DNA from: a virus
Length of the DNA: 52,563 nucleotides
Strand: one strand, 5' to 3'
IMG/VR virus record: IMGVR_UViG_3300020183_004978
Span: 1-52,563 of that record
In this document: one piece after another, positions 12,685-46,364 of the stretch
Layout of the letters: every line of letters begins with the position of its first letter
Position numbering within the stretch: the stretch's first letter is position 1
The notes under the pieces: model-generated
What the model was told of the DNA's origin: nothing
Database searches by the model: none
What the model saw: only the letters and a program-made list of their open reading frames with translations
Translations under genes and position numbers: made by a program

Positions 12685-13350
12685 TTAACATACTTCATTA
12701 AAGAAAAACATATGAAATAACCTACTACTATGAATATCCCAACCAAAATAATTTATTCCGGAATGGATTAATCCACCATCAAAAAGTATTAATCTATTAA
12801 ATACATTTCCTACAGTATCAACAGTTTCATAAGGTGTGCTATCTAGGAATGTTTTTTGATTAAATACTTTTAATCCATCACCAGCTTCCCAATTAATTTG
12901 AGTGTTATGAAATATTTTAGTTTGTTTATGTCTATAAAAACTAGTACCCGATTGAGGTGGAGCATCGGGTGTTAGATAAACTATAGCCGCCCATTTTTGA
13001 CTATCGCAATGAAATACTGATGGTACACCTGCTGAGCAATATTGAAAACGTCCATTTATGCCTATGTCAAACCACCCGTATCCATCGGCAAAATCTGCTA
13101 TTTTAGCTCCTATGATACTCTCAAACGCCTCTCTTATACCATCAAATAAAAATTGTTTTCTAGTACGATAACCTACAGCGCCCTCTCCTGGAAAATATAT
13201 TTGTTGTAAGGCAAAGTTTCTAACGGCGTGTGGATCAGTATAAAAATTATCTACAACAAAAAATCGTTTATCTTTTAAATCAGATATTCGACATTGATCT
13301 GTTTCAACTATTCCCCATTCTGATTCAGGATTTTTATCAATGTATTTCAT
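12685..13350 (-). CDS. 2-oxoglutarate/Fe(II)-dependent oxygenase-like protein (DUF6445-like)
   Basis: This 221-residue protein shows the metal triad of the 2OG-Fe(II) oxygenase cupin: H114-C-D116 (SVFHCDSQKW) and distal H196 (GGLIHSG), with R210 in SSRLFHMFF placed to bind 2-oxoglutarate. Between them are PPQSGTSFYRHK and FNRLILFDGG, typical of prolyl-hydroxylase-like domains. It should hydroxylate a protein, amino acid or sugar; the substrate is unknown. Its ATG overlaps the stop of the 930-residue glycosyltransferase by 4 bases, so the two are co-translated. In Dictyostelium a prolyl hydroxylase prepares Skp1 for a GT60 enzyme; two GT60 genes occur elsewhere in this window. Confidence 0.75.
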   Translation of the reverse strand: MKYIDKNPESEWGIVETDQCRISDLKDKRFFVVDNFYTDPHAVRNFALQQIYFPGEGAVGYRTRKQFLFDGIREAFESIIGAKIADFADGYGWFDIGINGRFQYCSAGVPSVFHCDSQKWAAIVYLTPDAPPQSGTSFYRHKQTKIFHNTQINWEAGDGLKVFNQKTFLDSTPYETVDTVGNVFNRLILFDGGLIHSGINYFGWDIHSSRLFHMFFFNEVC

Positions 13351-16139
13351 AGAAATATATTTTTAGCTACTTTTATAGTATCGTCTGTATTTTTAATTTT
13401 ATTAATAATTTTTCTACTAACTAAATCAGGATGTACGTACCAGTCTTCATAGTCGCGATCATCGTGTGGAGCTATGTTTGATAAGATTAATTCATATCCC
13501 TCAGACAATAAATATTCTCTAGATTTTAGCTTATATGATTGTATTTTATCAGTACAATGATCGTGTTCATATGTTATAATAGCAAATTTATATTTATGAA
13601 ATGGTATTTTAGTCAATATATCATACGTTACTGATGATGGATCACAATCAAGTTGTAGATAATCAATATTACGGGGGAAGTTAATTTCTTCTAATAAATC
13701 AATATAATTTATTTGTGTAGCATCTCTACATACAGCTATATTGTTTCTATCTCTAAAATATCTTTCAATTGATTCATATGTTATATCTAGCGATATGCCT
13801 TTCCAATTAAATTTAGATTCTAACAAATATGTATTATTTCCATAAAAGGGATAACCAGCGCCTATTTCTAAGTAAGTACCATTCTTTTTACCATCTAATA
13901 ATGTTAGTACAAACATATCTTGAAACGCCTCAGAGTAGTTTCTATCAATATTTTTAGCATTATTAAACTTGTATTTTAACTTCTTTAAATCACTACTATT
14001 ATATAAGTTTAAATCCCTGGCTGACGTTTCTAATTCTTGGTCTTTGGTTTTTAAAAAAGATATAAACTCGTCATCGTTTTTCCAGGCTTTCATAAACTTC
14101 AAATTATCAATAGTCGCTTGTTTATAAGATGTATCTAACGGTTCGTAAATAGAAAGATACTTAAATAAATTCTTAGATTCATTACATAATCCAGTCCACC
14201 AACCAGTGATTGCTCTTTCAAAAGTTAATCCATAAAATCCTGGATAGTCAAGTGTTGTTTTTAGTTTAGTTGGTTTTTTAATAGCTATTTTTTCTCCGAT
14301 GCAAGCCATTGTGTAAGCGCTAAACCATTTTTTGGCGTGCTCATAGAATCGGCTTAAATAAAAATAACCTTCGGGTCTAGTAGGTATTAATGCTACAGCG
14401 TGTTGTAACATTCCTTCTACCGAGTTGTTTCTGCTTCCTTGTGAATTAAAGCACATGCCCGCTCTTAATAACGCTTCATAACGCACTAATTCGTCATTAG
14501 TCCTTTCAGCCGCCCTTAAATAATATGATACCGCAGATGCTGTCTGTCCTATATCATGATAGTAGCAGCCCGTATAAAAGTTTATTTCTGCGTCTTCTGG
14601 GTATTGGATAAAGTGATCTAATAGCGCCTTTAGTACATCCTCTTCACCCATTAATTTATAAAATGATAATATGGATTGAATATTCATCCACTCATGTTTA
14701 CAATGAGTAAAGTTATTATAAGTTATATCTTCGCTTATTTTTATTTTTTCTTGTTTACCTCTTGTAATTACACCCAATCCCATATCAACATCAATGGTGT
14801 ACATTTCAAGGTCTGCTCTTATTTGTCTTAAATGAACAAACGCTTTCCAACAATCGCCTGTCCACGCTCCTCCTCTAAATGGAATAATTTGCATTTCTTC
14901 GGTAGTTGGAAGCATATCATGACAAATAATATATCCGTTTTTATTTAAACAACCTAACGAATTAATAATGTCTTTATATACTTGATCTACGTGGTGTAGA
15001 CCATCTATAAAGATAATATCAAACGTTTGCTTATTTGTTTTAAAAAACTCGTCTGATGTTAATTTTACAATATTATCCTGTTTGGGATAGGGGTCTACTC
15101 CGATTTTATTTTTTACTAGAATATCATTAAAGTTTACACAATCATCTACACCAATCTCTAGATAACTTTTAGCGTTAATTTTTTTCGCTATGTAATTTAT
15201 TATGTGTGTTCTTATACTTTTGCATAATTTGGGATACTTAAAATATTCTTCTTCAAATTTATTTTCTTGGTAAATATATTGTATTACATTGGCTGGGGGT
15301 AAAAAGAAATTTTTTAATTCTGAATCCTCTAATATTATTTTTGGTAGCTTATCTATGGGGTATGGATGTAAAACATGATCTGCTCTACCAAGAATATCAG
15401 TTCCGCCTTCTTTAGCATTAAATTCTTTTACGTGTTGTTTTGTTTTATCTGAACTTAATAACCCTATACCATCATCTACGATGTCATGAACGTGCATAAA
15501 TGATTCAAGTTTTTGAATTCTTTTACTAGCATCACCCATCCATGATAAATGCCATCCCACGATTTCATTGTCTGTTTCTTTATTAACGATTAAACTTTTA
15601 TATTTTATGTCTGTATTTAGGGTCTCTACTTCTCTAAGTTCACTTAACGTATATTCTTCTACGTGCTTTTTTAAACAGAAAAAGGGTGCTTTCCATTTTT
15701 TTACAGCACCATTAGGCTCGTGAATGCATAAATCTGCTCTTGTTGAATGAAAAGACATTGGTACTCGCACAATACGGTCTGAATGTGTTTTAGATACGTC
15801 TGCTAGTGTTTTTAAATAGATTGGATTTATTATTTCATCACAGTCGCTTATAAACCAAACTTCATCTTCTTGTATTAGTTTGCTTACAGCATTTCTTTGT
15901 TCTCTTTCTCGATTCCAATTATTAGATTGTTCGAGCTCAATATGAATTACTGAAATTTTATTGGAGGATAGATTATATTTTTCTAAAATTTGCTTGCATT
16001 TATATTCTTTATCTATACCGCTGTGTGTTCTATTTGCTTCGCAGATTACAAAACCATCTACATAATTTTGTAGAAGTTTGATTCTAAGAACTAGATGATA
16101 TTCTTCATTGAAAAACGGGAAGCAATCTATTATTTTCAT
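13347..16139 (-). CDS. Four-domain protein: GT17 glycosyltransferase, methyltransferase, TPR-like, FkbM-like methyltransferase
   Basis: This 930-residue protein is a fusion. Residues about 1-270 match the GT17 type (MKIIDCFPFFNEEYHLVLRI, then EVWFISDCDEII as acidic metal site, and VGWHLSWMGD). Residues about 300-460 look like a class I SAM methyltransferase (SYLEIGVDDCVNFND, FDIIFIDGLHHVDQ, GYIICHDMLP). Residues about 480-620 form helical TPR-like repeats. Residues about 720-930 resemble an FkbM-type methyltransferase (GTYLEIGAGYPFYGN, DYLQLDCDPSS). It overlaps both neighbours. The base composition is clearly more A/T-rich than the tail genes, a sign of transfer. The fusion suggests sugar addition and O-methylation in one polypeptide; the substrate is unknown. 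Confidence 0.8.
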   Translation of the reverse strand: MKIIDCFPFFNEEYHLVLRIKLLQNYVDGFVICEANRTHSGIDKEYKCKQILEKYNLSSNKISVIHIELEQSNNWNREREQRNAVSKLIQEDEVWFISDCDEIINPIYLKTLADVSKTHSDRIVRVPMSFHSTRADLCIHEPNGAVKKWKAPFFCLKKHVEEYTLSELREVETLNTDIKYKSLIVNKETDNEIVGWHLSWMGDASKRIQKLESFMHVHDIVDDGIGLLSSDKTKQHVKEFNAKEGGTDILGRADHVLHPYPIDKLPKIILEDSELKNFFLPPANVIQYIYQENKFEEEYFKYPKLCKSIRTHIINYIAKKINAKSYLEIGVDDCVNFNDILVKNKIGVDPYPKQDNIVKLTSDEFFKTNKQTFDIIFIDGLHHVDQVYKDIINSLGCLNKNGYIICHDMLPTTEEMQIIPFRGGAWTGDCWKAFVHLRQIRADLEMYTIDVDMGLGVITRGKQEKIKISEDITYNNFTHCKHEWMNIQSILSFYKLMGEEDVLKALLDHFIQYPEDAEINFYTGCYYHDIGQTASAVSYYLRAAERTNDELVRYEALLRAGMCFNSQGSRNNSVEGMLQHAVALIPTRPEGYFYLSRFYEHAKKWFSAYTMACIGEKIAIKKPTKLKTTLDYPGFYGLTFERAITGWWTGLCNESKNLFKYLSIYEPLDTSYKQATIDNLKFMKAWKNDDEFISFLKTKDQELETSARDLNLYNSSDLKKLKYKFNNAKNIDRNYSEAFQDMFVLTLLDGKKNGTYLEIGAGYPFYGNNTYLLESKFNWKGISLDITYESIERYFRDRNNIAVCRDATQINYIDLLEEINFPRNIDYLQLDCDPSSVTYDILTKIPFHKYKFAIITYEHDHCTDKIQSYKLKSREYLLSEGYELILSNIAPHDDRDYEDWYVHPDLVSRKIINKIKNTDDTIKVAKNIFL

Positions 16140-17254: not shown

Positions 17255-17473
17255 TTACAATTTATCCCCTTTGTTTATTCCGTACTTTATGTAGTTGTAC
17301 CAAACTCTCTCGTGGATGTAATATTGAATTGGTTTCCACAGTAGCTCCATAATTGTAAAAGCGCTACCTATTTTCAGAGATCCAGTAAAAAGCCAAACAG
17401 TTAAGAAACCTATAGTTGTACTAATTATCCTATAAGATATTGTCTTCGCTACGTGTCTCCTTTTGTTTACCAT
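17255..17473 (-). CDS. DUF2061 small membrane protein
   Basis: The ATG at 17473 gives 72 residues (a longer version would need an upstream TTG). The sequence HVAKTISYRIISTTIGFLTV, a second hydrophobic stretch (SAFTIMELLWKPIQYY) and the ending IHERVWYNYIKYG fit DUF2061, a short inner-membrane family with a Tyr/His-Glu-Arg-x-Trp signature. Its function is unknown, but in bacteria it is found near sulfate-activation genes; here it overlaps the nucleotidyltransferase gene by about 44 bases and sits two genes from an APS kinase. A role in sulfate uptake or PAPS supply is a guess. Confidence 0.8.
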   Translation of the reverse strand: MVNKRRHVAKTISYRIISTTIGFLTVWLFTGSLKIGSAFTIMELLWKPIQYYIHERVWYNYIKYGINKGDKL

Positions 17474-17816
17474 AAGTATCAATTTCTCCTTTTCTTATTT
17501 TAGTACCGCTTATTTCAGCGATATTTTGAGGAGGGTCGTGAAAAACAACTTCGTATCCCACTCCCCTTCCGTAATTTACGCTTTCTATGTCTGGTATGAT
17601 AGAAAGCAATATGTTACTGGCGTGTTTCTTAAAAAAATCGTGATTTTGTAACTCTTTAAATATTTTTTTTGCTGACTTTGGATTGTTTTCATCTATTTTC
17701 ACGTCCCTTATAGCTATCCAAACATTTTTACCTTTGTCTAACTGTTGACTAATCAACCACTCGTGACCCGAATGAAAATTCTGCCAACGACCTATGTACA
17801 ACGCATATTTTCTCAT
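17430..17816 (-). CDS. Small nucleotidyltransferase (HxGH superfamily)
   Basis: This 128-residue protein carries the two signatures of the nucleotidylyltransferase superfamily: IGRWQNFHSGHEWLI with H15 and H18 binding nucleotide phosphates, and EISGTKIRKGE near residues 99-109 as the ISxTxxR-type motif. Such enzymes attach AMP or CMP to a phosphate-bearing substrate. Because it overlaps the APS kinase gene by four bases (ATGA), it may act as a minimal ATP sulfurylase-like enzyme feeding APS to the kinase, or as a cytidylyltransferase or NMN adenylyltransferase. The first option is suggested only by context. Confidence 0.75.
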   Translation of the reverse strand: MRKYALYIGRWQNFHSGHEWLISQQLDKGKNVWIAIRDVKIDENNPKSAKKIFKELQNHDFFKKHASNILLSIIPDIESVNYGRGVGYEVVFHDPPQNIAEISGTKIRKGEIDTYGKQKETRSEDNIL

Positions 17817-18256
17817 AGTCCCAATTTAAACAACAATTCTGAAACTGAGCTATCTTCTGATTCGTGTGTGGTATCTATTTGAATAAAATCGTAAGTTGGA
17901 GGCTGGTACTCCTTCACGTGATAGCTTTCTCTTCCCCTTTCTTCGGAAGTGCTCACGTATATTTCAGCCACAGGGTTTTCTTTTTTGAAATCTTCCCTTT
18001 GGTCTCTATAAGGAGACACCAAAGATACCACGACGTCGTGACCCTTGTAACTCATAAACTTAGCTATTTCTTGAGCTCTGTTTATGTTTTGACGACGACC
18101 CTCTTCCGAATAGTTTTTATTTTCAAAAATATTTCTTAGATCGTCTCCGTCTATGTGAACGGGATTGAGCGTAGCTTTTTTAGATATGTGCTCAATTAAC
18201 CTTTTTGCAAGAGTCGTTTTCCCAGCCCCCGGTTGACCTGTTAACCAGTATATCAT
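17813..18256 (-). CDS. cysC: Adenylylsulfate (APS) kinase
   Basis: This 147-residue protein phosphorylates APS to PAPS, the donor for sulfotransferases. It has a Walker A motif GQPGAGKTT (residues 7-15), an HIDGDDLRNIF motif for APS binding, a YSEEGRRQNINRAQEIAKFM segment and VVVSLVSPYRDQRE, all typical of CysC; it is slightly shorter than cellular CysC (about 200). The gene is between a GT9-like enzyme (2 bases upstream) and the nucleotidyltransferase, and a sulfotransferase lies one gene further upstream. Together these genes look like a self-contained sulfation module. Confidence 0.9.
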   Translation of the reverse strand: MIYWLTGQPGAGKTTLAKRLIEHISKKATLNPVHIDGDDLRNIFENKNYSEEGRRQNINRAQEIAKFMSYKGHDVVVSLVSPYRDQREDFKKENPVAEIYVSTSEERGRESYHVKEYQPPTYDFIQIDTTHESEDSSVSELLFKLGL

Positions 18257-18258
18257 AA

Positions 18259-19221
18259 CTAATTTTTTTCTATAGCCTTGTATATTTCGCTTGTGTCAAA
18301 CATTTCAGTTACGTCGTAATAGGGACACTCGTGAGCTATTCCATCGAAAGAGTAATCAAAAAGGTAAGAATCGATCATTTTAATTTCGTTCTTCGGTGGA
18401 TTGGCTATTATGTTTTTGTGTATGTCGTAACCAAAGTTTTTATATGATGTACCCACCCAAAGTACGGTAGATTTTAGTTTCATAGCCGCGGCTGCGTGTT
18501 GTAGGCAAGAGTCTATTAACACCCGCTTTTCAGAAAGCACGAGCATAGAAAAAAGATCGTGATTAGTCATCGACGCGTTAACGAATTCAACCCCAGGTAT
18601 AGAGTGGCCCGGATTTCTGCCCACTTGAATTATGTGATACGTGCTAGAGTACTTGTTTACTATTTGAGTTGATATCTCGTAGGGCATGTCCCTAGTCCAA
18701 GAATACAAAGTGTCTTGTTGTAAAGGACCCCCGTTAGTGTGCAAAATCATTACGGGCTTGTCTCTCTTCCAATTGTACATCAAACTCTTTTGTATCATAT
18801 TAGGATACAAAATTGGTTGCTGATTTTCGTAAGGCACGTTTAATAAGTTACACCAATTTTCTATTAGGTGTTTCTTTTTCATTATGTGATCTGACTGGAA
18901 GTACGGCTCGTGCCTAAAAACTATCGTGTCTTTGTCTTTTATGTAATCGTCATAAAAGTAAGAAGTTATGCCTACTCTGTACACTCTGTGTATATCTGGG
19001 TGATTAAGAAAAACTTCAGGGTAAGAAACTACGAGTATCAGCTTTCTATCTGAATACTTCTTTTTTATAGAAGATATTAGAGCTGTAGCTGCTACGTTTT
19101 TGCCCAATCCTCCTTCTACGTGCCAAACTACGTATTTTTGGCTGTTGTTTGATTTATCTTCCGAAACTGCGAATTTTTCTTCTCTCAGTAATTGTGATTG
19201 TGTTTTGTAACCTACCAGCAT
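18259..19221 (-). CDS. GT9-like (heptosyltransferase-type) glycosyltransferase
   Basis: This 320-residue protein has a GT-B layout. The start of the first Rossmann domain reads VVWHVEGGLGKNVAATALIS, followed by YSDRKLILVVSYPEVFLNHP and DIHRVYRVG, as in ADP-heptose:LPS heptosyltransferases. The second domain has HIIQVGRNPGHSIPGVEFVN and RVLIDSCLQHAAAAMKLKST, corresponding to the donor-binding region where an asp/ser-his pair contacts the nucleotide. Donor is not predictable. It is tightly packed between the sulfotransferase and the APS kinase (2 bases each side). Confidence 0.75.
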   Translation of the reverse strand: MLVGYKTQSQLLREEKFAVSEDKSNNSQKYVVWHVEGGLGKNVAATALISSIKKKYSDRKLILVVSYPEVFLNHPDIHRVYRVGITSYFYDDYIKDKDTIVFRHEPYFQSDHIMKKKHLIENWCNLLNVPYENQQPILYPNMIQKSLMYNWKRDKPVMILHTNGGPLQQDTLYSWTRDMPYEISTQIVNKYSSTYHIIQVGRNPGHSIPGVEFVNASMTNHDLFSMLVLSEKRVLIDSCLQHAAAAMKLKSTVLWVGTSYKNFGYDIHKNIIANPPKNEIKMIDSYLFDYSFDGIAHECPYYDVTEMFDTSEIYKAIEKN

Positions 19222-19223
19222 AA

Positions 19224-20045
19224 CTACATTTTGTATCTAAAATCGTTGAAGAACCACGGATAAGCGTCCTGTATTAGCTTACAAGCGTTAGATCCCAAAA
19301 CCTCCCTAAAGTCGTCTCTCACTGGTTTCAACTGTTGTCTGATAATGTGATCTCCGAATACGCCGTACCACTTATCGTCTTCTTTTGTGTATTGAGGAAC
19401 GTTATTGAAATCGTGTTCGAAGTAAGGCAATTCTAAATACTCGTAAATAGCTCTAAGTTGAGGTTCGGGGTTTTCACACAACTCTTCGAATTTTATGAAT
19501 AAGATGTTTGGATGTATGCCTGTCACTAAAATCTCGTACAATCTATCCATTGAGGGACCTATTGGAGGATTGTTGGACCACACCATCATCCTCTTGTCTA
19601 CGTTCGTACCTGTCAAGTTTCCCCAATTTGACAAGTGATGATCTATAAGGGGGTTTTGTCTATACTTCTTTTCCATAGAAGCGTATATCGCTCTTATATC
19701 CCTTATCATGCAAATTACTTTAGGATTCGGATCGAAAGAGTTTAAAAAAGCGTACTCTGATCCCCAGCCCCTACACTTTTCTACGACGTAAGGTCTATCG
19801 GTGAGGGGTTCGTAAAATGCGTATAGTCCCGCTCTCAAAAAAGATTTGAAACCCGATTCCATCTCTTTTGGGTCCTGAGCCTTGAATTCTAAAGAATCTG
19901 AATAGATAGTCCTACACGCAGCTAACATCTCGTAAATTCCCGAGGTGGGAGTAGTGTGTATGTCTGGATTTTGACTTAGTATGTTTTGTATGAGAGTAGA
20001 GCCCGCTCTGGGTAAAGAACTATTATAGAACACTTTTTTAATCAT
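19224..20045 (-). CDS. PAPS-dependent sulfotransferase
   Basis: This 273-residue protein has the two PAPS-binding signatures of the sulfotransferase superfamily: the 5'-phosphosulfate loop SSLPRAGSTLIQNIL (residues 9-23) and the 3'-phosphate site VICMIRDIRAIYASMEKKYR (about residues 110-129). ILFIKFEELCENPEPQLRAI is the usual later motif. It should transfer sulfate to a hydroxyl on a glycan, lipid or tyrosine. A phage-encoded APS kinase two genes downstream can supply PAPS. The gene begins a compact run (2-base gaps) of sulfation and glycan genes. The acceptor is unknown; virion glycans are the main hypothesis. Confidence 0.85.
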   Translation of the reverse strand: MIKKVFYNSSLPRAGSTLIQNILSQNPDIHTTPTSGIYEMLAACRTIYSDSLEFKAQDPKEMESGFKSFLRAGLYAFYEPLTDRPYVVEKCRGWGSEYAFLNSFDPNPKVICMIRDIRAIYASMEKKYRQNPLIDHHLSNWGNLTGTNVDKRMMVWSNNPPIGPSMDRLYEILVTGIHPNILFIKFEELCENPEPQLRAIYEYLELPYFEHDFNNVPQYTKEDDKWYGVFGDHIIRQQLKPVRDDFREVLGSNACKLIQDAYPWFFNDFRYKM

Positions 20046-20070: not shown

Positions 20071-20418
20071 TTAGATCATAAACCTTCCGTTGTAGCTAGC
20101 AGTTAGTATTTCTGTTACAGATGTACCTTGTTGAGTAGCGATAATATCTAGTATCGTAGAATCATCAGTTCCCCAATTATCTATTGTGCTACCAGATAAA
20201 ACGACGTTATCAGCGTGTACTGTGTTAAACCCAACTATTTGACCGTTTTCGAAGGCACAGTTACCGTATAAAACTCTAAAATTAACTTTGTTTACACCTA
20301 AAATATATCGATCTGCAAGAGCAGCCACGTAAGATCCTGTAATGTATTCTGGAGTGGGATTGAATAGCGTATCTTGCGTTGCTTTACTAAGTACGGGACT
20401 TATCTTACCAAAAATCAT
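20071..20418 (-). CDS. Small virion-like hypothetical protein
   Basis: This 115-residue protein is not recognised. The sequence is polar and rich in beta-prone residues (YITGSYVAALADRYILGVNK, then VNFRVLYGNCAFENGQIVGF), without a signal peptide or membrane helix, and resembles small decoration or fibre-associated proteins. An ATATTTAT box lies 22 bases before its ATG, as for virion genes and unlike the glycosyltransferase genes around it, so it is probably a structural gene embedded in the modification island. Its 3' end is 25 bases before the sulfotransferase gene. Confidence 0.6.
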   Translation of the reverse strand: MIFGKISPVLSKATQDTLFNPTPEYITGSYVAALADRYILGVNKVNFRVLYGNCAFENGQIVGFNTVHADNVVLSGSTIDNWGTDDSTILDIIATQQGTSVTEILTASYNGRFMI

Positions 20419-20535: not shown

Positions 20536-21459
20536 CTACAACCCTCTTGGGTTCAAGGTATCTAAAAAGTTTGTCCACTCTTTTACTCTTTCTTCCCAAC
20601 TCCACCTAGTTGAGTACGCTTGCTTTTGCAATTTTAAATGCTCTTTTAATTCTCCGCTCCTTACTTTGTGTATTTCTTCTGAAAGAATTCTAGAAAACTT
20701 TTTGTAGTGATATTCCTTGTTTGCTAAGTAAGGATACATTCTGGCCCAACCCTCTGTGGTTTCAGGCAGCGCTCCTAAATTGGAAGTCACCACTCTCAGT
20801 CCTGCAGATAGCGCTTCTATGACAGATATACAAGAAGTCTCCTCAAAAGTACACGGATAAGCCAGAACGTGAAAAGACGGTAGTTCTTTAAGTAGATCTT
20901 TATTTTCTATAGATCCTCGATAGGTGACTCCTGGTAAGCTCCTGGCTCTTTCGTACAACTGTTCGTACACGCTCTCTTGAGAGGAAGAAAAATCCTTACC
21001 ATATATTTTTGTGCTAGAAAAGACGTGTAGCTCGCAGTTTTCGGGGTTTAACTCTTCCCAAGAATCTAGTAACACGTCTAGTCCCCTCCAAGGAGTAGAA
21101 GTGTAGCACACTTTTACTGTTTCTATTGGAGATTCAAAATCTTTGTCGTAAGTCTGTATACACGCGTTCTTTATCACTTGCGTCTTGTATCCTGGTATGC
21201 CGTAAATCTTTCTGAAACACTCAGCTTGCCATTGACTGACAAAGACGAAAGCGTCTATTTGATCCACGAATGAAGACGTGTTTAAGAATTTAACAGCCTG
21301 TTGATCGTAAGAGAGCTGGTTCCAATACACTAGTTTTTTAGAAGCGTCTGCGTAAACTGGATAGTTAAAAATACTAAATGCTTCTTTGTGGTGCGAGGGT
21401 AACCTATTCATAAGTTCCTCGTACATCAACTCGGTTCCTCCCATCGGTTTGTCAAACAT
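20536..21459 (-). CDS. GT4-like glycosyltransferase
   Basis: This 307-residue protein has GT4 features: PMGGTELMYEELMNRLPSHH at the start, VFVSQWQAECFRKIYGI near residues 72-88, YTSTPWRGLDVLLDSWEEL as the start of the second domain, and CTFEETSCISVIEALSAGLR with the Glu residues of the E-x7-E nucleotide site, followed by VVTSNLGALPET. It is shorter at the N-terminus than most GT4 enzymes, beginning directly at the GGTE loop. The start overlaps the upstream GT2 gene by 8 bases. A 34-codon open extension follows its amber stop. Confidence 0.85.
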   Translation of the reverse strand: MFDKPMGGTELMYEELMNRLPSHHKEAFSIFNYPVYADASKKLVYWNQLSYDQQAVKFLNTSSFVDQIDAFVFVSQWQAECFRKIYGIPGYKTQVIKNACIQTYDKDFESPIETVKVCYTSTPWRGLDVLLDSWEELNPENCELHVFSSTKIYGKDFSSSQESVYEQLYERARSLPGVTYRGSIENKDLLKELPSFHVLAYPCTFEETSCISVIEALSAGLRVVTSNLGALPETTEGWARMYPYLANKEYHYKKFSRILSEEIHKVRSGELKEHLKLQKQAYSTRWSWEERVKEWTNFLDTLNPRGL

Positions 21460-22108
21460 ACTCTAATTTTTTTAGATAGTTTTCGAGGTTTCCCTGGTAC
21501 TTTTTGTATCCTATGTGATTCAGCGTTATAGTTGGGTCGATCCACACTCGATATCCCAATTCTTGCCACTTTTGAGCCAAAACGTAATCCTCTGATATTA
21601 AGTCTCCGTTTTTTACTTTCACATCGAACACCATCCTTTCTTTTTGCCCCTCCGAATCGTAATGTTCGCTGATATTCCACAGTTTTTCTAGAGCAAACTT
21701 AGAAACTTTTAAAAACCCAGTACCCACACCGTCTACGCAAATTATTTTTTTGTCTTCAGACCACTTTAGCTTTTTTTCTTCCAACTTAACAGTGTAACCC
21801 TCTTCTTCTGACTTTTTAACTAGGGCGGCTCCAACTATTGGCTCATGTCTTTTTAACAGACTAAAAAACCACTCTGGATCCCACTCTACGTCTGAATCTA
21901 TGAAGAAGAGGTCGTCGTACTGTTCTTGTATTGCTATTCTAACTAAAGAGTTTCTGGCTCTCTGTATAAGAGAATCGTAAGACGTGTAAACCGCGTGTAC
22001 AAACACGTTCTCTTGATAAGATCTTTTTACGGTTTGTAAAAGGGAATTGGCGTACCAAACGCCAACTGATCCGTCGTAACACGGAGTGCCTATCAAAACT
22101 CTTCGCAT
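21452..22108 (-). CDS. GT2-like (GT-A) glycosyltransferase
   Basis: This 218-residue protein begins MRRVLIGTPCYDGSVGVWYA and has the donor site DDLFFIDSDVEWDPEWFFSL (about residues 65-84) with the DxD motif DSD. IVGAALVKKSEEEGYTVKLE and GVGTGFLKVSKFALEKLW are further GT-A features, and ISEDYVLAQKWQELGYRVW holds the ED acceptor-side acid. It is the first gene of the left island, 19 bases after the large fibre gene, so it may be co-transcribed with the fibre, in line with the fibre being its acceptor. That link is inference. Confidence 0.82.
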   Translation of the reverse strand: MRRVLIGTPCYDGSVGVWYANSLLQTVKRSYQENVFVHAVYTSYDSLIQRARNSLVRIAIQEQYDDLFFIDSDVEWDPEWFFSLLKRHEPIVGAALVKKSEEEGYTVKLEEKKLKWSEDKKIICVDGVGTGFLKVSKFALEKLWNISEHYDSEGQKERMVFDVKVKNGDLISEDYVLAQKWQELGYRVWIDPTITLNHIGYKKYQGNLENYLKKLEYV

Positions 22109-22127: not shown

Positions 22128-25100
22128 TTATTTGTTTTCTAAATTTGTAATCCTAGTGTCAAGTTCTTGTACGGATTTTACTATTGATGCTATAAGTTCT
22201 TCGTAAGTCAACCTATAAGCGTCTTTGTCGTCATCGTGACCAAGGCCGTCGAATTTAACTCCCAATTCGTCTATTACTTGCTTCAATTCTTGAGCAATGA
22301 ATCCGTAGTGTTCCTTATTTCCTATTAAAGTGCCGTCTTTATCTCCGTAATTGTACTTACACTCTCTAACGTACGTTTCTCTATTATCCCAATTAAAAGC
22401 CACGGGTCTAAGCTTTTTAATAAAAGATAGACCAAGTTTTTCTGGTAAAGATTTTACGTTAGTTTTATCCCTGCAATCAGAAACGGTAGACCATGCAACG
22501 TATACACAGTTACAAACGTTATTTCCAGAGTTACCCCAAACTGTGTGTCCGGTCGTAGCGCTTGTAGCACTAGTTGCTCCGACTGCTATCGTGTTGTTGA
22601 CACCCGTATTAAGACCGCTCTGCGCCTTTACGCCTACCGCGGTATTACAATTTCCCGAAGTGTTACTCTTCAGAGCACAAAAGCCTACACCAGTGTTACA
22701 ACAACCGGCCGAAATACTACTCAAAACATCAGCTCCAAAAGCTGAGTTACAACCTCCCGAAAGATAAAGGCCTGACAAAGTCGACATTCCAACACCTGTA
22801 TTTTGAGCTGCCGTATTGGCCTGTAGAGATTTGTAGCCTATCCCTATGTTCGATCCACCGTTACCTGCGTTACACATCGCAAAAGTGCCTATAGCTATAT
22901 TTTCTGATCCGTTAGAACTATTGGCCAACGTGCAGGCTCCTATAGCAATGTTTCTGTTGTTACCGTTACACCTTAAAGAGAACGCTCCAATCGCTACGTT
23001 GTGACTTTCGAAAGTTGTAGCCATGTTGTTTGAGAATAAAGCGCACCTGCCTATAGCGATGTTGTAACCTCCGGTAGTGTTGCACCTAAGAGACAAGTAA
23101 CCTATCGCAACGTTGTTAGTTCCCCTTGTGTTTGCAGCAGCTGCCAAGCTGCCGATCGCAGTGTTAAAGGTGCCCGAAGTGTTACAAATAAGAGCGCTAG
23201 ATCCCACTGCAACGTTATTCACTCCTGTGGTGTTAGCTGTGATAGAGTAAGCGCCCACAGCGATGTTTGCAGTAGTTGTGTTTGTAGAGGCAAACGTATT
23301 CTTTAAAGCGTTTCTTCCCAATGCTATGTTGTGATTACCCGGATTCGCGTTTGGTGAAGACATGGCTTGGTATCCCATAACGATGTTGTGCCCTCCGTTC
23401 ATGCGACACGCTGTCCTGTATCCAAAAGCTATGTTGCAACCTCCACCTCCATTGCCCGCTTCCATCACAAGTTGACCGACTAAAAAGTTAGTGTCGCCGC
23501 AGTTACTGTCTCCTGCTCTGTATCCTATTATGGTTGATCTATGGAAATTACATCCACTCCTACCAGCTGACCTACCAATTAGAGTATTAGAATCCCCCGT
23601 CGTGATTCCACAACCTGGCAAATCTCCCAACATCACATTAAAAGCGCCGCTAGTTAAGGTGGTTCCTGCAGAACTTCCTATCAAAACATTTGCACGACCA
23701 GACGTCATCGCCTGCCCTACATCCCTTCCCACAACCGTGTTCCTAACTCCAGTAGTAAGACAAATTAAACCATGATGTGATATTGCAATATTAGCATAAC
23801 CGGTTGTAACTTTGTAAAGAGCGCAAGTACCAATGGCTATGTTTGAATTAGTAGGCCAATAGTTAGGGTTACCAGCGGGAGCAAAATTTGAATTTCTAAG
23901 CGCTTGGTATCCGATTGCTATTTGCAAATGATTACTTACGTTCGATAATAGAGCCTGATTACCTATTGCTATATTACGCCTACCGCTTACGTTAGAAGCT
24001 AGTGATCTAGACCCTATTGCGACGTTAGAATAACCTACAGTAGCTGCGGTGAGTGCGTACGCGCCAACTGCAATATTAGATGTAGCGGAAGTGGATCCAA
24101 AATTCTGGGCTAGTCCTGCTCCCCTACCCACCGCAACGTTGAAGCCTCCCGTAGTGTTTGCGCAAAGCGCTCTGTACCCCATCGCTACGTTGCTTGCACC
24201 CGTGATGTTTGACCCAAGAGCGTTGCAACCCAACACAGAGTTGGTAATTACTGCTCCCCCTCCCCTACCTACAGCAAGCGAATTTACCACTAAAGCAGTC
24301 CCATCGAAAGTTAAATTGGCTTCTCCATTAATAGTGCCCGCTACTCCTGTAGCTGTGAGTACGAAGTTGTCTACGTTGTTGTTAATGGTAGCAGCACCAG
24401 CTATGCCTTGAATTCCCTGTGTTCCCTGCGTTCCTTGCGCTCCGGTATTACCAGTGGTTCCCTGTGTTCCCTGTGCTCCAGTATTACCAGTGGTTCCCTG
24501 TATTCCCTGTGCTCCAGTGCTGCCTGTAGCTCCTTGCGTTCCTTGCGCTCCGGTATTACCAGTGGTTCCCTGTATTCCCTGTGCCCCAGTGCTGCCTGTG
24601 GCTCCCTGTGTTCCCTGTGCTCCAGTATTACCAGTGGTTCCCTGTATTCCCTGTGCTCCAGTACTGCCTGTGGCTCCTTGCGTTCCTTGCGCTCCGGTAT
24701 TACCAGTGGTTCCTTGTATTCCCTGTGCTCCTGTAGTTCCTTGTATTCCCTGAGTTCCCTGCGCTCCAATGTTACCAGTGGTTCCCTGTATTCCCTGTGT
24801 TCCCTGTATTCCCTGAATTCCTTGAGTTCCTTGTGTTCCCTGAGTTCCCTGCGCTCCGCCTGTTCCTGTAATTCCTTGTGTGCCTTGAGATCCTCCTGAT
24901 CCAGTCGATCCCTGTGTTCCCTGCGTTCCCTGTGCTCCTGTAGTTCCTTGTATTCCCTGAGTTCCCTGTGCTCCAATGTTACCAGTGGTTCCTTGTATTC
25001 CCTGTGCTCCAGTACTGCCTGTGGCTCCCTGCGTTCCCTGTGCTCCAATGTTACCAGTGGTTCCCTGTATTCCCTGTGCTCCTGTAGTTCCTTGTATTCC

Positions 25101-27512
25101 CTGGGTTCCCTGCGCTCCAATGTTACCAGTGGTTCCCTGTATTCCCTGTGCTCCAGTAGTTCCTTGTATTCCCTGAGTTCCCTGCGCTCCAACGTTACCA
25201 GTGGTTCCCTGTATTCCCTGTGCTCCCGTAGTTCCTTGTATTCCCTGAGTTCCTTGCGCTCCAACGTTACCGGTGGTTCCCTGTATTCCCTGTGCGCCTG
25301 TAGTTCCCTGTATTCCCTGAGTTCCCTGCGCTCCAACGTTACCAGTGGTTCCCTGTATTCCCTGTGTTCCCTGTATTCCCTGAATTCCTTGAGTTCCTTG
25401 TGTTCCCTGAGTTCCTTGAGTTCCCTGTATTCCCTGTGTTCCTTGTGTTCCTTGTATTCCCTGAATTCCTTGAGCCCCAGTTATGCCTTGTATTCCCTGA
25501 GTTCCTTGTGTTCCTTGTATTCCCTGAATTCCTTGAGCCCCAGTTATGCCTTGTATTCCCTGCGTTCCTTGAGCTCCTTCTATACCTTGTATTCCCTGAA
25601 TTCCTTGAGCCCCAGTTATGCCTTGTATTCCCTGAATTCCCTGTGTTCCTTGAGTTCCCTGAATTCCTTGTGCCCCAGTTATACCTTGTATTCCTTGTGT
25701 TCCCTGTATTCCCTGCGTTCCTTGAGTTCCTTGTGTTCCTTGCGTTCCTTGAGTTCCTTGTGTTCCCTGGATTCCTTGAATTCCTTGAATGCCCTGGAGA
25801 CTTAAGTCCGTCCTATATCGAAAATTTCCGCTTGTGTCACTTACTACTATATTAGTCTCTGTTGAACCAAGAGGAATATTAGTAAATGATAGACTACCGG
25901 TAATAGAAACGGATCCAGAAAATTGATGGGTGTTTATTGATGGTAAAGTTCCAAACTTAGTAGATCCTGTGATGAAATCCCTAGAAGAAGTGACTTCTTG
26001 GACTACCAAAGTTTGAGCTGTTATGTTACCCGTTGAAAATAAATTTCCGGTTAAAGAAAGAGTAGTTCCATCGAAAGTTAAATTACTTTCTCCATTAAAA
26101 GGTGTCGCTGAATTTCCTGTAGCAGTTACTACAAAATTATTTGTGTTATTAGTTAAAGATGTAGACGCGTCTGTGCCTTGAATTCCTTGTATTCCCTGAA
26201 TTCCCTGTGTTCCTTGAGTTCCCTGAATTCCCTGTGTTCCTTGTATTCCTTGAATTCCTTGTATTCCTTGAGTTCCCTGAATTCCTTGCGCCCCAGTTAT
26301 ACCTTGTATTCCTTGTGTTCCTTGTATTCCCTGAATTCCTTGAGTTCCTTGAGTTCCCTGTATTCCCTGCGTTCCTTGAGTTCCTTGCGCTCCGCCTGCT
26401 CCGCCTGTTCCTGTAATTCCCTGTGTTCCTTGAGCTCCTTCTATACCTTGTATTCCCTGAATTCCTTGAGCCCCAGTTATGCCTTGAATTCCTTGTGTTC
26501 CTTGTATTCCCTGAATTCCCTGTGTTCCTTGGGTTCCCTGAATTCCTTGCGCCCCAGTTATACCTTGTATTCCTTGTATTCCCTGAATTCCTTGCGCCCC
26601 AGTTATACCTTGTATTCCTTGTATTCCCTGAATTCCTTGTGTTCCTTGAATTCCCTGAATTCCTTGCGCCCCAGTTATACCTTGTATTCCTTGTATTCCC
26701 TGAATTCCTTGTGTTCCTTGAATTCCCTGAATTCCCTGAATTCCTTGAGCCCCAGTTATGCCTTGAATTCCCTGTGTTCCTTGAGTTCCCTGAATTCCCT
26801 GTATTCCTTGAGCTCCTTCTATACCTTGTATTCCCTGAATTCCTTGAGCCCCAGTTATGCCTTGAATTCCTTGTATTCCCTGAATTCCCTGTGTTCCTTG
26901 TATTCCCTGAATTCCTTGCGCCCCAGTTATGCCTTGTATTCCTTGTGTTCCTTGTATTCCCTGAATTCCTTGCGCCCCAGTTATGCCTTGTATTCCTTGA
27001 ATTCCTTGGGTTCCTTGAGTTCCTTGAATTCCCTGAATTCCTTGAGTTCCTTGTGTTCCCTGTATTCCTTGAATTCCCTGTATTCCTTGAATTCCCTGTG
27101 TTCCTTGAGTTCCCTGAATTCCTTGTGCCCCAGTTATACCTTGTATTCCTTGTGTTCCTTGTATTCCCTGAATTCCCTGTGTTCCTTGAGTTCCCTGAGT
27201 TCCTTGAGTTCCCTGTATTCCCTGCGTTCCTTGTGTTCCTTGCGTTCCTTGAGTTCCTTGTGTTCCTTGCGTTCCTTGAATACCTTGAACCCCCTGTGTT
27301 CCTTGAGTTCCCTGTAAACTTAAATCTGATCTGAATTTGAAAGATCCGCTTGAATCGATTACCGCTATATTGGTTTCCGTGGTGCCCTGTACGACGTTTG
27401 GAAGATTTAAAGAACCCGATATCAATACGCTTCCGCTTATCGAAAGCGATCCTGTAATTTGAGAATTGTCTAGGGCTATTAGACCATTTCTTACTACGAA
27501 TTCGTTAGCCAT
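22128..27512 (-). CDS. Giant collagen-like tail fibre with beta-helical head repeats and S74 chaperone
   Basis: This 1794-residue protein is modular. Residues 1-68 are an attachment segment with ITGSLSISGSVLISGS repeats. Residues about 69-444 and 571-1037 are Gly-X-Gln collagen-like repeats (GTQ and GIQ, with GIT/GTT/GNV-GAQ variants and almost no Pro), split by a beta-rich linker containing ITAQTLVVQEVTSS. Residues about 1038-1660 are about twenty repeats of the NxAIG type, as in trimeric adhesin head domains. The end is an S74 self-cleaving chaperone: SDCRDK starts at S1678 (likely cleavage serine), followed by LRPVAFNW, HYGFIAQELKQVI and a coiled coil. It should form a trimeric receptor-binding fibre whose chaperone is released. 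A hairpin and an ATATTTAT box lie in its leader. Confidence 0.9.
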   Translation of the reverse strand: MANEFVVRNGLIALDNSQITGSLSISGSVLISGSLNLPNVVQGTTETNIAVIDSSGSFKFRSDLSLQGTQGTQGVQGIQGTQGTQGTQGTQGTQGTQGIQGTQGTQGTQGTQGIQGIQGTQGIQGITGAQGIQGTQGTQGIQGIQGIQGIQGTQGTQGIQGIQGTQGTQGIQGIQGITGAQGIQGIQGTQGIQGITGAQGIQGIQGTQGIQGIQGIQGITGAQGIQGIQGIEGAQGIQGIQGTQGTQGIQGITGAQGIQGIQGIQGTQGIQGIQGIQGITGAQGIQGIQGTQGIQGIQGIQGITGAQGIQGIQGIQGITGAQGIQGTQGTQGIQGIQGTQGIQGITGAQGIQGIQGIEGAQGTQGITGTGGAGGAQGTQGTQGIQGTQGTQGIQGIQGTQGIQGITGAQGIQGTQGIQGIQGIQGTQGIQGTQGTQGIQGIQGIQGTDASTSLTNNTNNFVVTATGNSATPFNGESNLTFDGTTLSLTGNLFSTGNITAQTLVVQEVTSSRDFITGSTKFGTLPSINTHQFSGSVSITGSLSFTNIPLGSTETNIVVSDTSGNFRYRTDLSLQGIQGIQGIQGTQGTQGTQGTQGTQGTQGIQGTQGIQGITGAQGIQGTQGTQGIQGIQGITGAQGIQGIQGIEGAQGTQGIQGITGAQGIQGIQGTQGTQGIQGITGAQGIQGIQGTQGTQGIQGTQGTQGTQGTQGIQGIQGTQGIQGTTGNVGAQGTQGIQGTTGAQGIQGTTGNVGAQGTQGIQGTTGAQGIQGTTGNVGAQGTQGIQGTTGAQGIQGTTGNIGAQGTQGIQGTTGAQGIQGTTGNIGAQGTQGATGSTGAQGIQGTTGNIGAQGTQGIQGTTGAQGTQGTQGSTGSGGSQGTQGITGTGGAQGTQGTQGTQGIQGIQGTQGIQGTTGNIGAQGTQGIQGTTGAQGIQGTTGNTGAQGTQGATGSTGAQGIQGTTGNTGAQGTQGATGSTGAQGIQGTTGNTGAQGTQGATGSTGAQGIQGTTGNTGAQGTQGTTGNTGAQGTQGTQGIQGIAGAATINNNVDNFVLTATGVAGTINGEANLTFDGTALVVNSLAVGRGGGAVITNSVLGCNALGSNITGASNVAMGYRALCANTTGGFNVAVGRGAGLAQNFGSTSATSNIAVGAYALTAATVGYSNVAIGSRSLASNVSGRRNIAIGNQALLSNVSNHLQIAIGYQALRNSNFAPAGNPNYWPTNSNIAIGTCALYKVTTGYANIAISHHGLICLTTGVRNTVVGRDVGQAMTSGRANVLIGSSAGTTLTSGAFNVMLGDLPGCGITTGDSNTLIGRSAGRSGCNFHRSTIIGYRAGDSNCGDTNFLVGQLVMEAGNGGGGCNIAFGYRTACRMNGGHNIVMGYQAMSSPNANPGNHNIALGRNALKNTFASTNTTTANIAVGAYSITANTTGVNNVAVGSSALICNTSGTFNTAIGSLAAAANTRGTNNVAIGYLSLRCNTTGGYNIAIGRCALFSNNMATTFESHNVAIGAFSLRCNGNNRNIAIGACTLANSSNGSENIAIGTFAMCNAGNGGSNIGIGYKSLQANTAAQNTGVGMSTLSGLYLSGGCNSAFGADVLSSISAGCCNTGVGFCALKSNTSGNCNTAVGVKAQSGLNTGVNNTIAVGATSATSATTGHTVWGNSGNNVCNCVYVAWSTVSDCRDKTNVKSLPEKLGLSFIKKLRPVAFNWDNRETYVRECKYNYGDKDGTLIGNKEHYGFIAQELKQVIDELGVKFDGLGHDDDKDAYRLTYEELIASIVKSVQELDTRITNLENK
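24400..25800 (-). repeat. Second Gly-X-Y repeat tract of the fibre gene
   Basis: This is a tract of 9-base Gly-X-Gln codon repeats arranged in larger units. On the protein level a 24-residue unit built from GTTGNVGAQGTQGIQ and GTTGAQGIQ recurs several times, with NT/NI/NV variants. Copies differ at synonymous sites. Such DNA is prone to slippage and unit gain or loss. Confidence 0.9.
26178..27315 (-). repeat. First Gly-X-Y repeat tract of the fibre gene
   Basis: The tract encodes about 375 residues of GTQ and GIQ triplets with recurring GITGAQ and GIEGAQ interruptions. It lacks the NV/NT-GAQ variants of the second tract, so the two have diversified separately. Confidence 0.9.
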
Positions 27513-38862: not shown

Positions 38863-40539
38863 TTAGTTCTCTCTCCTATCCTCCCTAGAATAAAATTCAA
38901 ACCTATCGTGTTCTGTAGGAGTGGCTAAAAGTATTCCTGGATATATTCTTCCTTTCATAGTTTCTTGATATATGTAAGACATCCAAGTCTGTTCGTAGGG
39001 ATGAGCCCACTTCGTCTCCAAGAACATCTTTCTGTTTCCCTCTTTTGATACTGTTTGCGGCCAATTACAGTAGTACACTTCTCCAGTGGCGTAAGGCACA
39101 CCCGTGTGAGACTTTATGTTTTTGAAGTTCGTAAAAGGCTCCTTTCCATAATCGTTTTCGGATTTGTTGGGGTGTTCTGGAAAATACTTCTCTCTTACGT
39201 CTTGGGGTATGTTATACCACGCCCACTGTCTTGAGTTGTCTCCGAAGAATTCTGTGAAGTTCCACTTGAGAAAATCAAAATTTTCTTTGAGCATTAGGCT
39301 CATCATTTTATCGTAAAAATCTTCTATTTTTCTTATGAAACCGCTTCTGCAAAATTCGTCTTTTCCCAAATAAAAAAACATGTCGTCTTCGAAGAAGAAG
39401 TGAAAATCTAAATCGTTTTCTTCGGCGTGTTCAGCTATGAACTGTCTTGCTCCGCATATGCCTATATTATTTTTGTGTATCTCTTCAAAACCGTATTTAT
39501 CGCACAGAAGATCGTAATCGCGGAATGTTTTTTCGTCCGTAGAGTTGTTGATTAGGTACTTTTTGGGCTTATTCAAAAAAGAATTGTCGTAAATATCAAA
39601 AGACGTGCAAAGCTTTTCAAATTGTTTCGGAGAGTTAAAAGTTAAAACGTACAGCGCAACTTTTACATCTTCAACGCTTTTCACCTCTTTTAACTCAATT
39701 TTCTCTTGCTTTGACACCAGCGAATCGTTTTTAAGGTCTTCAAAAAACTTACCCAATAATCCGTTTGATTCTATTTCGTAGTACTGTATTAATTCTGGGT
39801 ACAAATACGTCATTATAGTGAATACGCTCTCTTCGGTACCCATTAAGCCTTCGCTTAGGGTTTGATTGAGAATGCCGTAATAAATAGAATTTATTTCTTT
39901 GATGGACGATTTTGGTCCTCCAAATATTCCTCCTCTAGCAACTTTATCTACTTCAGCTTTAGAATACTGACACATATCTTTGTATGTGAATCCGTGAATT
40001 TCTACTTTTCCATCGTAAGGAAAACAAACGAAGCTAAACTTATTGAAGTACTTGTCTATCTTTTGAATAACCTTATCGTGCCAAAAATAACCCTCGTGTA
40101 CAGTATTGGTTAAGGCTCCGTCTATCCACACCAAATGAGAAGACCCAAACGGATCCAATATCGCAGCGTCGTTTAGCAAAAACATCTTAGACATTACTAT
40201 CAGGTTGTAATACTCTAATTTTGCTTGCGTGCTTTCTGTTAGCCAAGATGATTGGCTAAACCAATCTGGGTTTACTCTTATCTTTTCTATCTTTTTAAAT
40301 AGATCTCCGTTTTTTAAAAACCACTCTAAGCCTCTAACGATAACACGGGTATTGTGTTTTTTTCTTCTCTTCCAAACAAAATTTTCGTACTCTTCCTCTA
40401 TAAAAATAATCATATTGTCTTCTACTTTCATTAACTTTTCTAAGTTATTCAAGTAGTGTTCGAAACTTCTACTCCAACCCTCGGTTAGAGTGTCTCTTTT
40501 AATATTCCAAATGCCCGTAACTATGGTGATTTTACTCAT
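38863..40539 (-). CDS. HtrL/YibB-like protein fused to a GT-A glycosyltransferase domain
   Basis: This 558-residue protein has two halves. Residues about 1-275 match the HtrL/YibB (WlaTC) family: TGIWNIKRDTLTEGWSRSFE, NPDWFSQSSWLTESTQAKLE and LVWIDGALTNTVHEGYFWHD, then ARGGIFGG and GTEESVFTIMTYLYPELI. Residues about 300-558 form a GT2-type domain: ALYVLTFNSPKQFEKLCTSF, then ICGARQFIAEHAEEN and FHFFFEDDMFFYLGK with the acidic DD donor site. The family is found in surface polysaccharide loci; its activity is poorly known. It is the last gene of the right-hand modification cluster and overlaps the next by 8 bases. The fusion suggests two sequential sugar transfers. Confidence 0.75.
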   Translation of the reverse strand: MSKITIVTGIWNIKRDTLTEGWSRSFEHYLNNLEKLMKVEDNMIIFIEEEYENFVWKRRKKHNTRVIVRGLEWFLKNGDLFKKIEKIRVNPDWFSQSSWLTESTQAKLEYYNLIVMSKMFLLNDAAILDPFGSSHLVWIDGALTNTVHEGYFWHDKVIQKIDKYFNKFSFVCFPYDGKVEIHGFTYKDMCQYSKAEVDKVARGGIFGGPKSSIKEINSIYYGILNQTLSEGLMGTEESVFTIMTYLYPELIQYYEIESNGLLGKFFEDLKNDSLVSKQEKIELKEVKSVEDVKVALYVLTFNSPKQFEKLCTSFDIYDNSFLNKPKKYLINNSTDEKTFRDYDLLCDKYGFEEIHKNNIGICGARQFIAEHAEENDLDFHFFFEDDMFFYLGKDEFCRSGFIRKIEDFYDKMMSLMLKENFDFLKWNFTEFFGDNSRQWAWYNIPQDVREKYFPEHPNKSENDYGKEPFTNFKNIKSHTGVPYATGEVYYCNWPQTVSKEGNRKMFLETKWAHPYEQTWMSYIYQETMKGRIYPGILLATPTEHDRFEFYSREDRREN

Positions 40540-41407
40540 TGATTCCGTTAATTTCTTCTAATATTTTATAAAAGCTCTTATTTACTTTAAAAAAATCTTG
40601 AGGCGCTTCTTTGTAATTGTCTTCATGCCACCACACATCGAAATTTAGCGTTTTAAACCACTCCTTATGATTTTGGTACATTAACCCCATTATGTGCTCT
40701 TCAAAATATAATCTCTTTTCTTCTTTAGAAATTAATCTTAAATAAAAATCAAACTTATCGACTATTTTGTTCCATAAATCTACTTTTCCACCAAAAAAAC
40801 CTCCTATTATATGCACACTTTTATCGTATTTTGTATAGTATCTCTCATTAACCGTGCCATCCCAGTAATTACGAAAGTTTTCTTTAGCTACTATAACAAA
40901 CTTATCTTCTGAAGATGAAATTAAATTTTCCAAAAATTTATCATTAAATAGAGTGCTTTCAAAGTATCCTCTATACCCAAGCATTGGCAGATATTTGTTA
41001 GGTATTATTCCTGTGTGAGATAAACCAGCATCAAACCAAAAATAATAATCGTACGTTCTATCTTCTTTTTTAAACCAAGAAAACTTAGAATATTGTATTT
41101 CCACGCATCTATCGGATTTTTTTGTTGCCTCAAAATCTTTTATAGAATTGATCATTTCTGCATATTCTGTCTTAGCTATATCGTATACTTGAAATTTTAA
41201 TTTATCTTGTGAAACTTGGTGAGTTTCATAAAAGAAATTTTTTAAATCTTCTATCTCTCTTTCAGATGTATAGCATAAAAAATCTGCTTCAGACATCTTT
41301 AAAAGTGATAAAAGGCTAAATCTATAATGATCTTTTCTACCAGACCTTCCTCCTAAGTCACCTCCATATAGGTCAGAATAAATACACGTTGTTATTTTAA
41401 CTTTCAT
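40532..41407 (-). CDS. HtrL/YibB-like putative glycosyltransferase
   Basis: This 291-residue protein resembles the HtrL/YibB family: TYDYYFWFDAGLSHTGIIPN (about residues 123-142) parallels the WIDGAL region of the adjacent fusion protein, and SVHIIGGFFGGKVDLWNKIV then RLYFEEHIMGLMYQNHKEWF parallel its GGIFGG and E-x-HI/E-x-S regions. The N-terminus KITTCIYSDLYGGDLGGRSG is different. Activity is probably sugar transfer; donor and acceptor are unknown. It overlaps the fusion gene by 8 bases and is 1 base after the GT25 gene. The sequence is A/T-rich compared with late genes. Confidence 0.65.
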   Translation of the reverse strand: MKVKITTCIYSDLYGGDLGGRSGRKDHYRFSLLSLLKMSEADFLCYTSEREIEDLKNFFYETHQVSQDKLKFQVYDIAKTEYAEMINSIKDFEATKKSDRCVEIQYSKFSWFKKEDRTYDYYFWFDAGLSHTGIIPNKYLPMLGYRGYFESTLFNDKFLENLISSSEDKFVIVAKENFRNYWDGTVNERYYTKYDKSVHIIGGFFGGKVDLWNKIVDKFDFYLRLISKEEKRLYFEEHIMGLMYQNHKEWFKTLNFDVWWHEDNYKEAPQDFFKVNKSFYKILEEINGINE

Positions 41408-41408
41408 C

Positions 41409-43684: not shown

Positions 43685-43689
43685 ATTTT

Positions 43690-45083: not shown

Positions 45084-45087
45084 ACTT

Positions 45088-46359: not shown

Positions 46360-46364
46360 AGATT

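Follow-up and report, generated by a model that had tools for sequence, protein, structure and literature searches.

A proline-free collagen-like fibre and an adjoining candidate sulfation cassette in an uncultured T4-like phage

The stretch of DNA analysed here (the window) was a complete virus record from IMG/VR (52,563 bases), itself a fragment of a T4-like phage. A long collagen-like fibre gene in the window was followed by a cassette of glycosyltransferase-like, sulfotransferase, APS-kinase-like and nucleotidyltransferase genes. We put it at somewhat short of an even chance that this phage activates sulfate itself and bears sulfated glycans on its fibre. The anatomy of the fibre, the families or folds of the parts, the recurrence of the cassette behind fibres, and the fusion of the nucleotidyltransferase to an APS kinase elsewhere came directly from the tools used. 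The first-pass annotation had overlooked the sulfotransferase, APS-kinase-like and nucleotidyltransferase portion of the cassette.

The fibre open reading frame (ORF) encoded 1794 amino acids on the minus strand at 22128–27512, with its ATG at 27512 and its stop at 22128–22130. This frame, which the first-pass annotation had given correctly but for the missing strand, was single and uninterrupted; the plus strand across the region was riddled with stops, and the ORF itself is real. Plus-strand ORFs within it (e.g., 26178–27317, 379 aa) were discarded as antisense reflections of the repeats. From its N terminus the protein was comprised of: an N-terminal piece starting MANEFVVRNGLI (residues 1–67; 27312–27512); collagen-like tract 1 with 127 Gly-X-Y triplets, matched by Pfam Collagen (residues 68–448; 26169–27311); a spacer (residues 449–573; 25794–26168); collagen-like tract 2 with 156 triplets (residues 574–1041; 24390–25793); a head made of a junction and NxAIG-type repeats (residues 1042–1677; 22482–24389); and a C-terminal S74 intramolecular chaperone of 117 residues with the motif SDCRDK (22128–22481). 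The spacer ended in a repeat (GSVSITGSLSFTNIPLGSTETNIVVSDTSGNFRYRTDLSLQG) of the pre-collagen end of the N-terminal piece and began much like the segment following tract 2. Fibres of two other loci (L203 and L021) began with MANEFRVKNGLIV and MANEFKVKNGLLV, respectively, which are related to the start of the window fibre; the 86-aa N-terminal stretch had no match among 50,697 phages.

Pfam Collagen (PF01391) matched the fibre at 1.4e-125, over cut-off, and Peptidase_S74 (PF13884) at 2.1e-11 (44.3 bits against a cut-off of 22). The S74 cleavage site carries a Ser-Lys dyad, S(+5)K, found here as Ser1678-Lys1683 in SDCRDK. The S74 domain reported at first pass was thus confirmed by profile and motif, and its self-cleavage is predicted. 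The earlier count of about twenty NxAIG head repeats was also fair, with 29 matches to a loose motif, mostly 16–21 aa apart. Likeness to a YadA-type head was in the motif only, with no Pfam head-repeat match up to E=5, and searches of PDB sequences returned nothing informative for either the head or the S74 end.

The Gly-X-Y tracts made up 849 of the 1794 residues and both were unbroken; glycine at every third residue over 127–156 triplets cannot be chance. In total, 283 triplets were counted: GIQ (98), GTQ (77), GAQ (41), GTT (18), GIT (16), and others (33). The fibre had been described as made almost only of Gly-Thr-Gln and Gly-Ile-Gln, which overstated the case: these two formed 62% of the triplets and 29% of the protein, and the remaining triplets were mostly GAQ, GTT, GIT, GST, and GNT, with no GPT. 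The X position was occupied only by Ile, Thr, Ala, Asn, Ser, or, once, Val, and the Y position by Gln (77%) and Thr (17%); Thr occurred 98 times at X and 48 times at Y. There was no Lys or Arg and there were four acidic residues. The scarcity of Pro remarked on earlier proved complete, with 0 Pro in 283 triplets, in place of the Pro/Hyp-rich X and Y positions of animal-type collagen. Synonymous codon use was broad (Gln CAA 117, CAG 101; 25 and 45 distinct DNA words in the two tracts), which points to a pattern kept by selection at the protein level and not to recent slippage. Tandem-repeat periods of 27, 36, and 72 bases with 66–80% match fit DNA repeats that are old and diverged. At the rise of 2.9 Å per residue for a triple helix (PMC3368898), the tracts would be about 110 and 136 nm long if wholly triple-helical. 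By itself, the fibre is a further example of an already known type of collagen-like phage fibre.

The major head protein was of the Gp23 type (phrog_138, 5e-70) and 56% identical to that of Flavobacterium phage immuto; together with a T4-like gene order, this identified the phage as T4-like. The first reading of the ORF as a fibre held up, from its place in the T4-like structural region, its matches to PHROG tail-fibre families, and its S74 motif. The neck-to-sheath interval of immuto contained fibre genes in the same order as the window, where that interval was occupied by fibre and cassette; none of the immuto genes in this interval was annotated as belonging to a cassette of this kind. Pro-free Gly-X-Y fibres recurred among relatives of the window phage. 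One relative with a 70% identical upstream structural protein (L015) contained four collagen blocks joined by a window-like spacer, and such fibres seem to grow by module duplication. The proposed variation in repeat length was therefore upheld in kind, as four blocks versus two; a query with the head domain returned junction matches only and no close fibre relative, which left no near-identical phages for a comparison of repeat number. L013 and L014, the closest relatives as judged by the upstream 593-aa protein, have contigs that stop in the next gene, before any such fibre. A further relative (L010 and L011; head protein 57% identical) had two collagen tracts rich in GPT (162 and 173 triplets), the nearest seen here to BclA repeats.

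The cassette genes were also on the minus strand. Nearest the fibre, 19 bp behind it, was a glycosyltransferase-like protein of 218 aa (21452–22108) with weak Anp1 and GT2 matches below cut-off; its homologues, 65–73% identical, were found behind fibres in loci L093–L101. It was overlapped by a GT4 glycosyltransferase (20536–21459; Pfam 2.3e-10), in agreement with the earlier remark that two glycosyltransferases start 19 bases after the stop. Next were a 115-aa protein to which no function was assigned (20071–20418), kept in L099–L101, and a PAPS-type sulfotransferase (19224–20045). The latter matched Pfam Sulfotransfer_3 over cut-off (7.5e-15) and contained both the 5'-PSB loop (LPRAGST) and the 3'-PB motif (RDIRAIYASM), and PAPS-dependent activity is predicted. 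Its nearest solved structures were protein-tyrosine sulfotransferases (4e-15), and some two dozen further viral loci contained relatives 49–73% identical to it.

The usual neighbour of the sulfotransferase was a GT9-like (heptosyltransferase-fold) protein of 320 aa (18259–19221). It had no Pfam match, and its AlphaFold model (pLDDT 80) was placed in the GT9 fold by Foldseek, with 3tov as best match (6e-11, TM about 0.6) followed by WaaF/WaaC and TibC. A short APS-kinase-like protein (17813–18256) matched Pfam APS_kinase (PF01583) at 1.5e-19 and 70.9 bits, over cut-off, with the invariant columns DGDxxR and R..N, and all of its good solved matches were APS kinases or PAPS synthases. It was without the canonical full lid (KGLYKKA) and scored below the NCBIfam equivalog cut-off of TIGR00455 (71.7 versus 138.7 bits). 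The last gene encoded an HxGH nucleotidyltransferase of 128 aa (17430–17816), a candidate minimal sulfate adenylyltransferase, in which the family alignment showed GRWQNFHSGH, YGRGVGY, and ISGTKIR. It was nearest to NMN adenylyltransferases by sequence and fold (model pLDDT 74) and had no match to ATP sulfurylase (Sat; PF01747). Overall, the identities of the cassette enzymes were moderately to well supported.

The order glycosyltransferase-like, GT4, sulfotransferase, GT9-like, APS kinase, nucleotidyltransferase recurred with minor changes behind fibres in L093, L094, L099–L101, and L202, and the core of sulfotransferase, APS kinase and nucleotidyltransferase in L102–L106 and L114–L116. This recurring gene order strengthened the link between fibre and glycosylation. 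The fibre preceding the cassette varied, from the NxAIG type (L093, L099–L101) to a collagen of 610 GTS/GTT triplets (L096). Of the 34 sulfotransferase loci with full flanks, 26 had a Gly/Thr/Ser/Asn-rich ORF (400 aa or longer) no more than 5 kb from the sulfotransferase, versus 1 of the 27 loci that had the nucleotidyltransferase but not that sulfotransferase (Fisher 3e-9, a value that is only a guide, as the loci are related and not independent). The single fibre-bearing comparison locus was L203, whose record contained a sulfotransferase elsewhere. The gap between fibre and cassette was 19 bp in the window and 7–28 bp in other loci, and the fibre ORF ended 7 bp (L113) and 17 bp (L112) before the sulfotransferase itself. 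Collagen tracts in sulfotransferase loci were Pro-free in 9 of 10 cases and had Thr at 70–95% of X positions in 8 of 10, whereas tracts without a sulfotransferase mostly contained Pro or charged residues, except for the Pro-free tracts of L015 and L020 (dereplicated p 0.005 for Thr at X and 0.011 for Pro). The window, with Thr at 35% of X positions, was the lowest of the main group; L118, with a distant sulfotransferase, had some Pro in its collagen, and in several loci the fibre adjoining the sulfotransferase had no collagen tract. Just downstream of the cassette in L102 (13124–20815) and in L104 was a protein of more than 2500 aa with 656 GTN/GTS-type Gly-X-Y triplets and many N-G-T/S sequons.

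Some other genes of the window, all on the minus strand, also stood out. A second glycosyltransferase-like block (38863–47618) included HtrL_YibB, GT25, GT8-like, and GT10 fucosyltransferase-like proteins and a pair of paralogues (45088 and 46365); the stretch was largely low-GC. In L103, L115, and L116, homologues of the 38863 and 45088/46365 genes also lay close to the sulfotransferase cassette. Close to this block were two repetitive, mucin-like proteins rich in VTPSNT/TPTNT (47677–50769, 1030 aa; 50790–51941, 383 aa), possible further glycosylation acceptors. A 930-aa fusion of a GT17-like domain with methyltransferase-type domains was encoded at 13347–16139, and at 12685–13350 a DUF6445/PHROG 1644 protein that has HxD...H-like motifs and may be a 2-oxoglutarate oxygenase.

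Outside the window, the nucleotidyltransferase was repeatedly associated with APS kinase. In L204 it was joined to a complete canonical APS kinase in one 322-aa chain (5e-46 to 5cb6), and this homologue alone gave an ATP-sulfurylase match, which was sub-threshold. A canonical APS kinase stood next to the nucleotidyltransferase in both L207 and L211, with Pfam sulfotransferases at a distance of up to about 4 kb. APS kinase was present in 27 of 30 nucleotidyltransferase records versus 1 of 15 controls. The pair or fusion also occurred in Acidobacteria, Bacteroidota, Nomurabacteria, Omnitrophota, and Euryarchaeota. Among 18 cellular genomes containing the pair, 17 had no ATP-sulfurylase (PF01747) and 13 had no PF01507 (PAPS_reduct/CysD) match over cut-off, absences that are soft since many of these genomes are incomplete MAGs or SAGs; Sulfotransfer_3 was found in 15 of the 18 versus 2 of 14 control genomes. 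In the nucleotidyltransferase tree, a canonical APS kinase accompanied all outer branches of the window's group, those that fall outside its main phage clades. In the window's own clade, 20 of 26 tips had no neighbouring APS kinase, and three long records carrying it (G002, G003, G006) had none anywhere; the nucleotidyltransferase can therefore act without a phage APS kinase, or else has a different role. Together, the fusion and pairing, the genome content and the tree favour a role of nucleotidyltransferase and kinase in APS/PAPS synthesis. Bacterial and archaeal fusions of an NMN-adenylyltransferase-like HxGH domain with APS kinase (L213, L217, L222–L228), mostly without recognised ATP sulfurylase, are a candidate new PAPS synthase. 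A related nucleotidyltransferase in L229–L292 (mostly SAR11) was often beside a divergent APS-kinase-like protein with the motif NADEVRK.

In the mechanism proposed here, the ORF would encode the chain of a tail fibre or adhesin, presumably a trimer, of the T4-like phage, with an N-terminal attachment piece, two Gly-X-Y rods with a duplicated spacer, and a beta-roll-like head that the S74 chaperone would fold before being cleaved off. The nucleotidyltransferase may act as a small ATP sulfurylase converting sulfate to APS, which the APS-kinase-like protein would convert to PAPS. The glycosyltransferase-like, GT4, and GT9-like proteins would place sugars on Thr/Ser of the repetitive fibre, and the sulfotransferase would add sulfate to these fibre-borne sugars. 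The reactions of the individual enzymes, the trimer with its triple helix and, most of all, the choice of the fibre over the host surface as acceptor are inferred.

Several known systems share parts of this arrangement. Bacillus BclA has a Thr-rich Gly-X-Y rod of GPT repeats. The window fibre resembles it in its Thr-rich rod and possible O-glycosylation but is without GPT, has Thr mostly at X, and stands in a phage context; the likeness drawn at first pass was weak, and BclA membership was rejected, as Pfam gave only Collagen and S74 and no further BclA domain was found. Mycobacteriophages encode glycosyltransferases thought to act on virion proteins. Such glycosylation, suggested for the virion of mycobacteriophage Maravista (PMC11256854), is alike in phage glycosyltransferases and virion targets, whereas it involves no sulfation and the capsid is the suggested target. 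TibC/TibA is a protein heptosyltransferase system in which a GT9-fold enzyme glycosylates a repetitive adhesin (PMC4358343); the window likewise has a GT9-fold enzyme beside a repetitive adhesin, with a match in fold only (about 12% identity), but TibC/TibA has no sulfation. In PAPS synthases and in Sat/CysDN with CysC, too, an APS-kinase domain is joined to or adjoins a nucleotidyltransferase of the HxGH type, although the one here is about 130 aa, NMN-adenylyltransferase-like, and not a Pfam ATP-sulfurylase. Cyanophages and OM43 phages, like the window, have Sulfotransfer_3 members in their genomes, and the function of these genes was reported as unclear (PMC10580990); the window enzyme was at most 29% identical to those in 50,697 phage records. 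A literature search found no described phage sulfation system and none sulfating its own virion.

Tail-fibre proteins of E. coli O157 prophages (EPclA and others) are collagen-like phage fibre chains with Gly-X-Y rods (PMC3368898). In their tracts, of 111–322 residues, Pro occupies X and K, Q or A occupies Y (GPK, GPQ, GPA), whereas those of the window have no Pro or basic residue and span 381 and 468. A Pro-free, uncharged rod would need other stabilisation, for which glycans are an obvious candidate. The same absence of Pro and of the charge pairs used by prophage collagens would suit another Gly-rich rod or a disordered linker, unmodified and unrelated to its neighbours; given the strict Gly spacing through 283 triplets, with no break inside either tract, and the triple helix demonstrated for a prophage Gly-X-Y domain (PMC3368898), we regard this as improbable.

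A somewhat unlikely alternative is that the cassette puts sulfated sugars on the host surface (O-antigen, capsule), e.g., excluding competing phages, with fibre adjacency reflecting an exchangeable host-recognition region. Glycosyltransferases in the pelagimyophage host-recognition cluster have been read in this way (PMC7029224), more glycosyltransferases stand at 38863–47618, GT9 relatives include LPS heptosyltransferases, and many fibre neighbours would be expected anyway in a host-recognition region rich in glycosyltransferases. However, the scan of the cassette genes revealed no membrane flippase, polymerase or lipid carrier, the spacing to the fibre is tight, and collagen composition tracked the presence of the sulfotransferase. 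Direct sulfation of tyrosines in the fibre or another virion protein, with no glycan, would agree with the nearest solved structures of the sulfotransferase; it is very unlikely in a fibre with 23 Tyr among 1794 residues and beside a GT9-like glycosyltransferase that usually accompanies the enzyme. It is also improbable that nucleotidyltransferase and kinase serve NAD salvage, as a NadR-like pair, or another nucleotide-linked donor. The NMN adenylyltransferase fold, the solitary nucleotidyltransferases in the window clade, and the pair in SAR11, the other large group, with its divergent kinase, would fit such a role; fusion to a full canonical APS kinase in phage, bacteria and archaea, the canonical kinase on outer branches, and the association with sulfotransferase argue against it. 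Campylobacter phosphoramidate synthesis uses a CysC-like kinase; a pathway of this type was disfavoured, as no glutamine kinase or amidotransferase was found among the cassette genes scanned.

The pairing of fibre and candidate sulfation cassette appears to be new, and the nucleotidyltransferase as sulfate activator would be its newest element, if confirmed. A wider reading, tentative and on balance doubtful, is that a widespread group of uncultured phages has a complete sulfation pathway, including an unrecognised family of small ATP sulfurylases shared with bacteria and archaea. Sulfated O-glycans made in this way would cover their Pro-free, Thr-rich collagen fibres, stabilising the helix and adjusting adhesion. 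The recurring order of fibre and cassette offers a testable answer on the role of phage sulfotransferases. The nucleotidyltransferase and APS kinase pair, if true, would be an additional route to activated sulfate, in cells mostly without the recognised enzymes. Additionally, Pro-free, Thr-rich phage collagens would provide a natural test of whether glycans may substitute for hydroxyproline in holding the triple helix.
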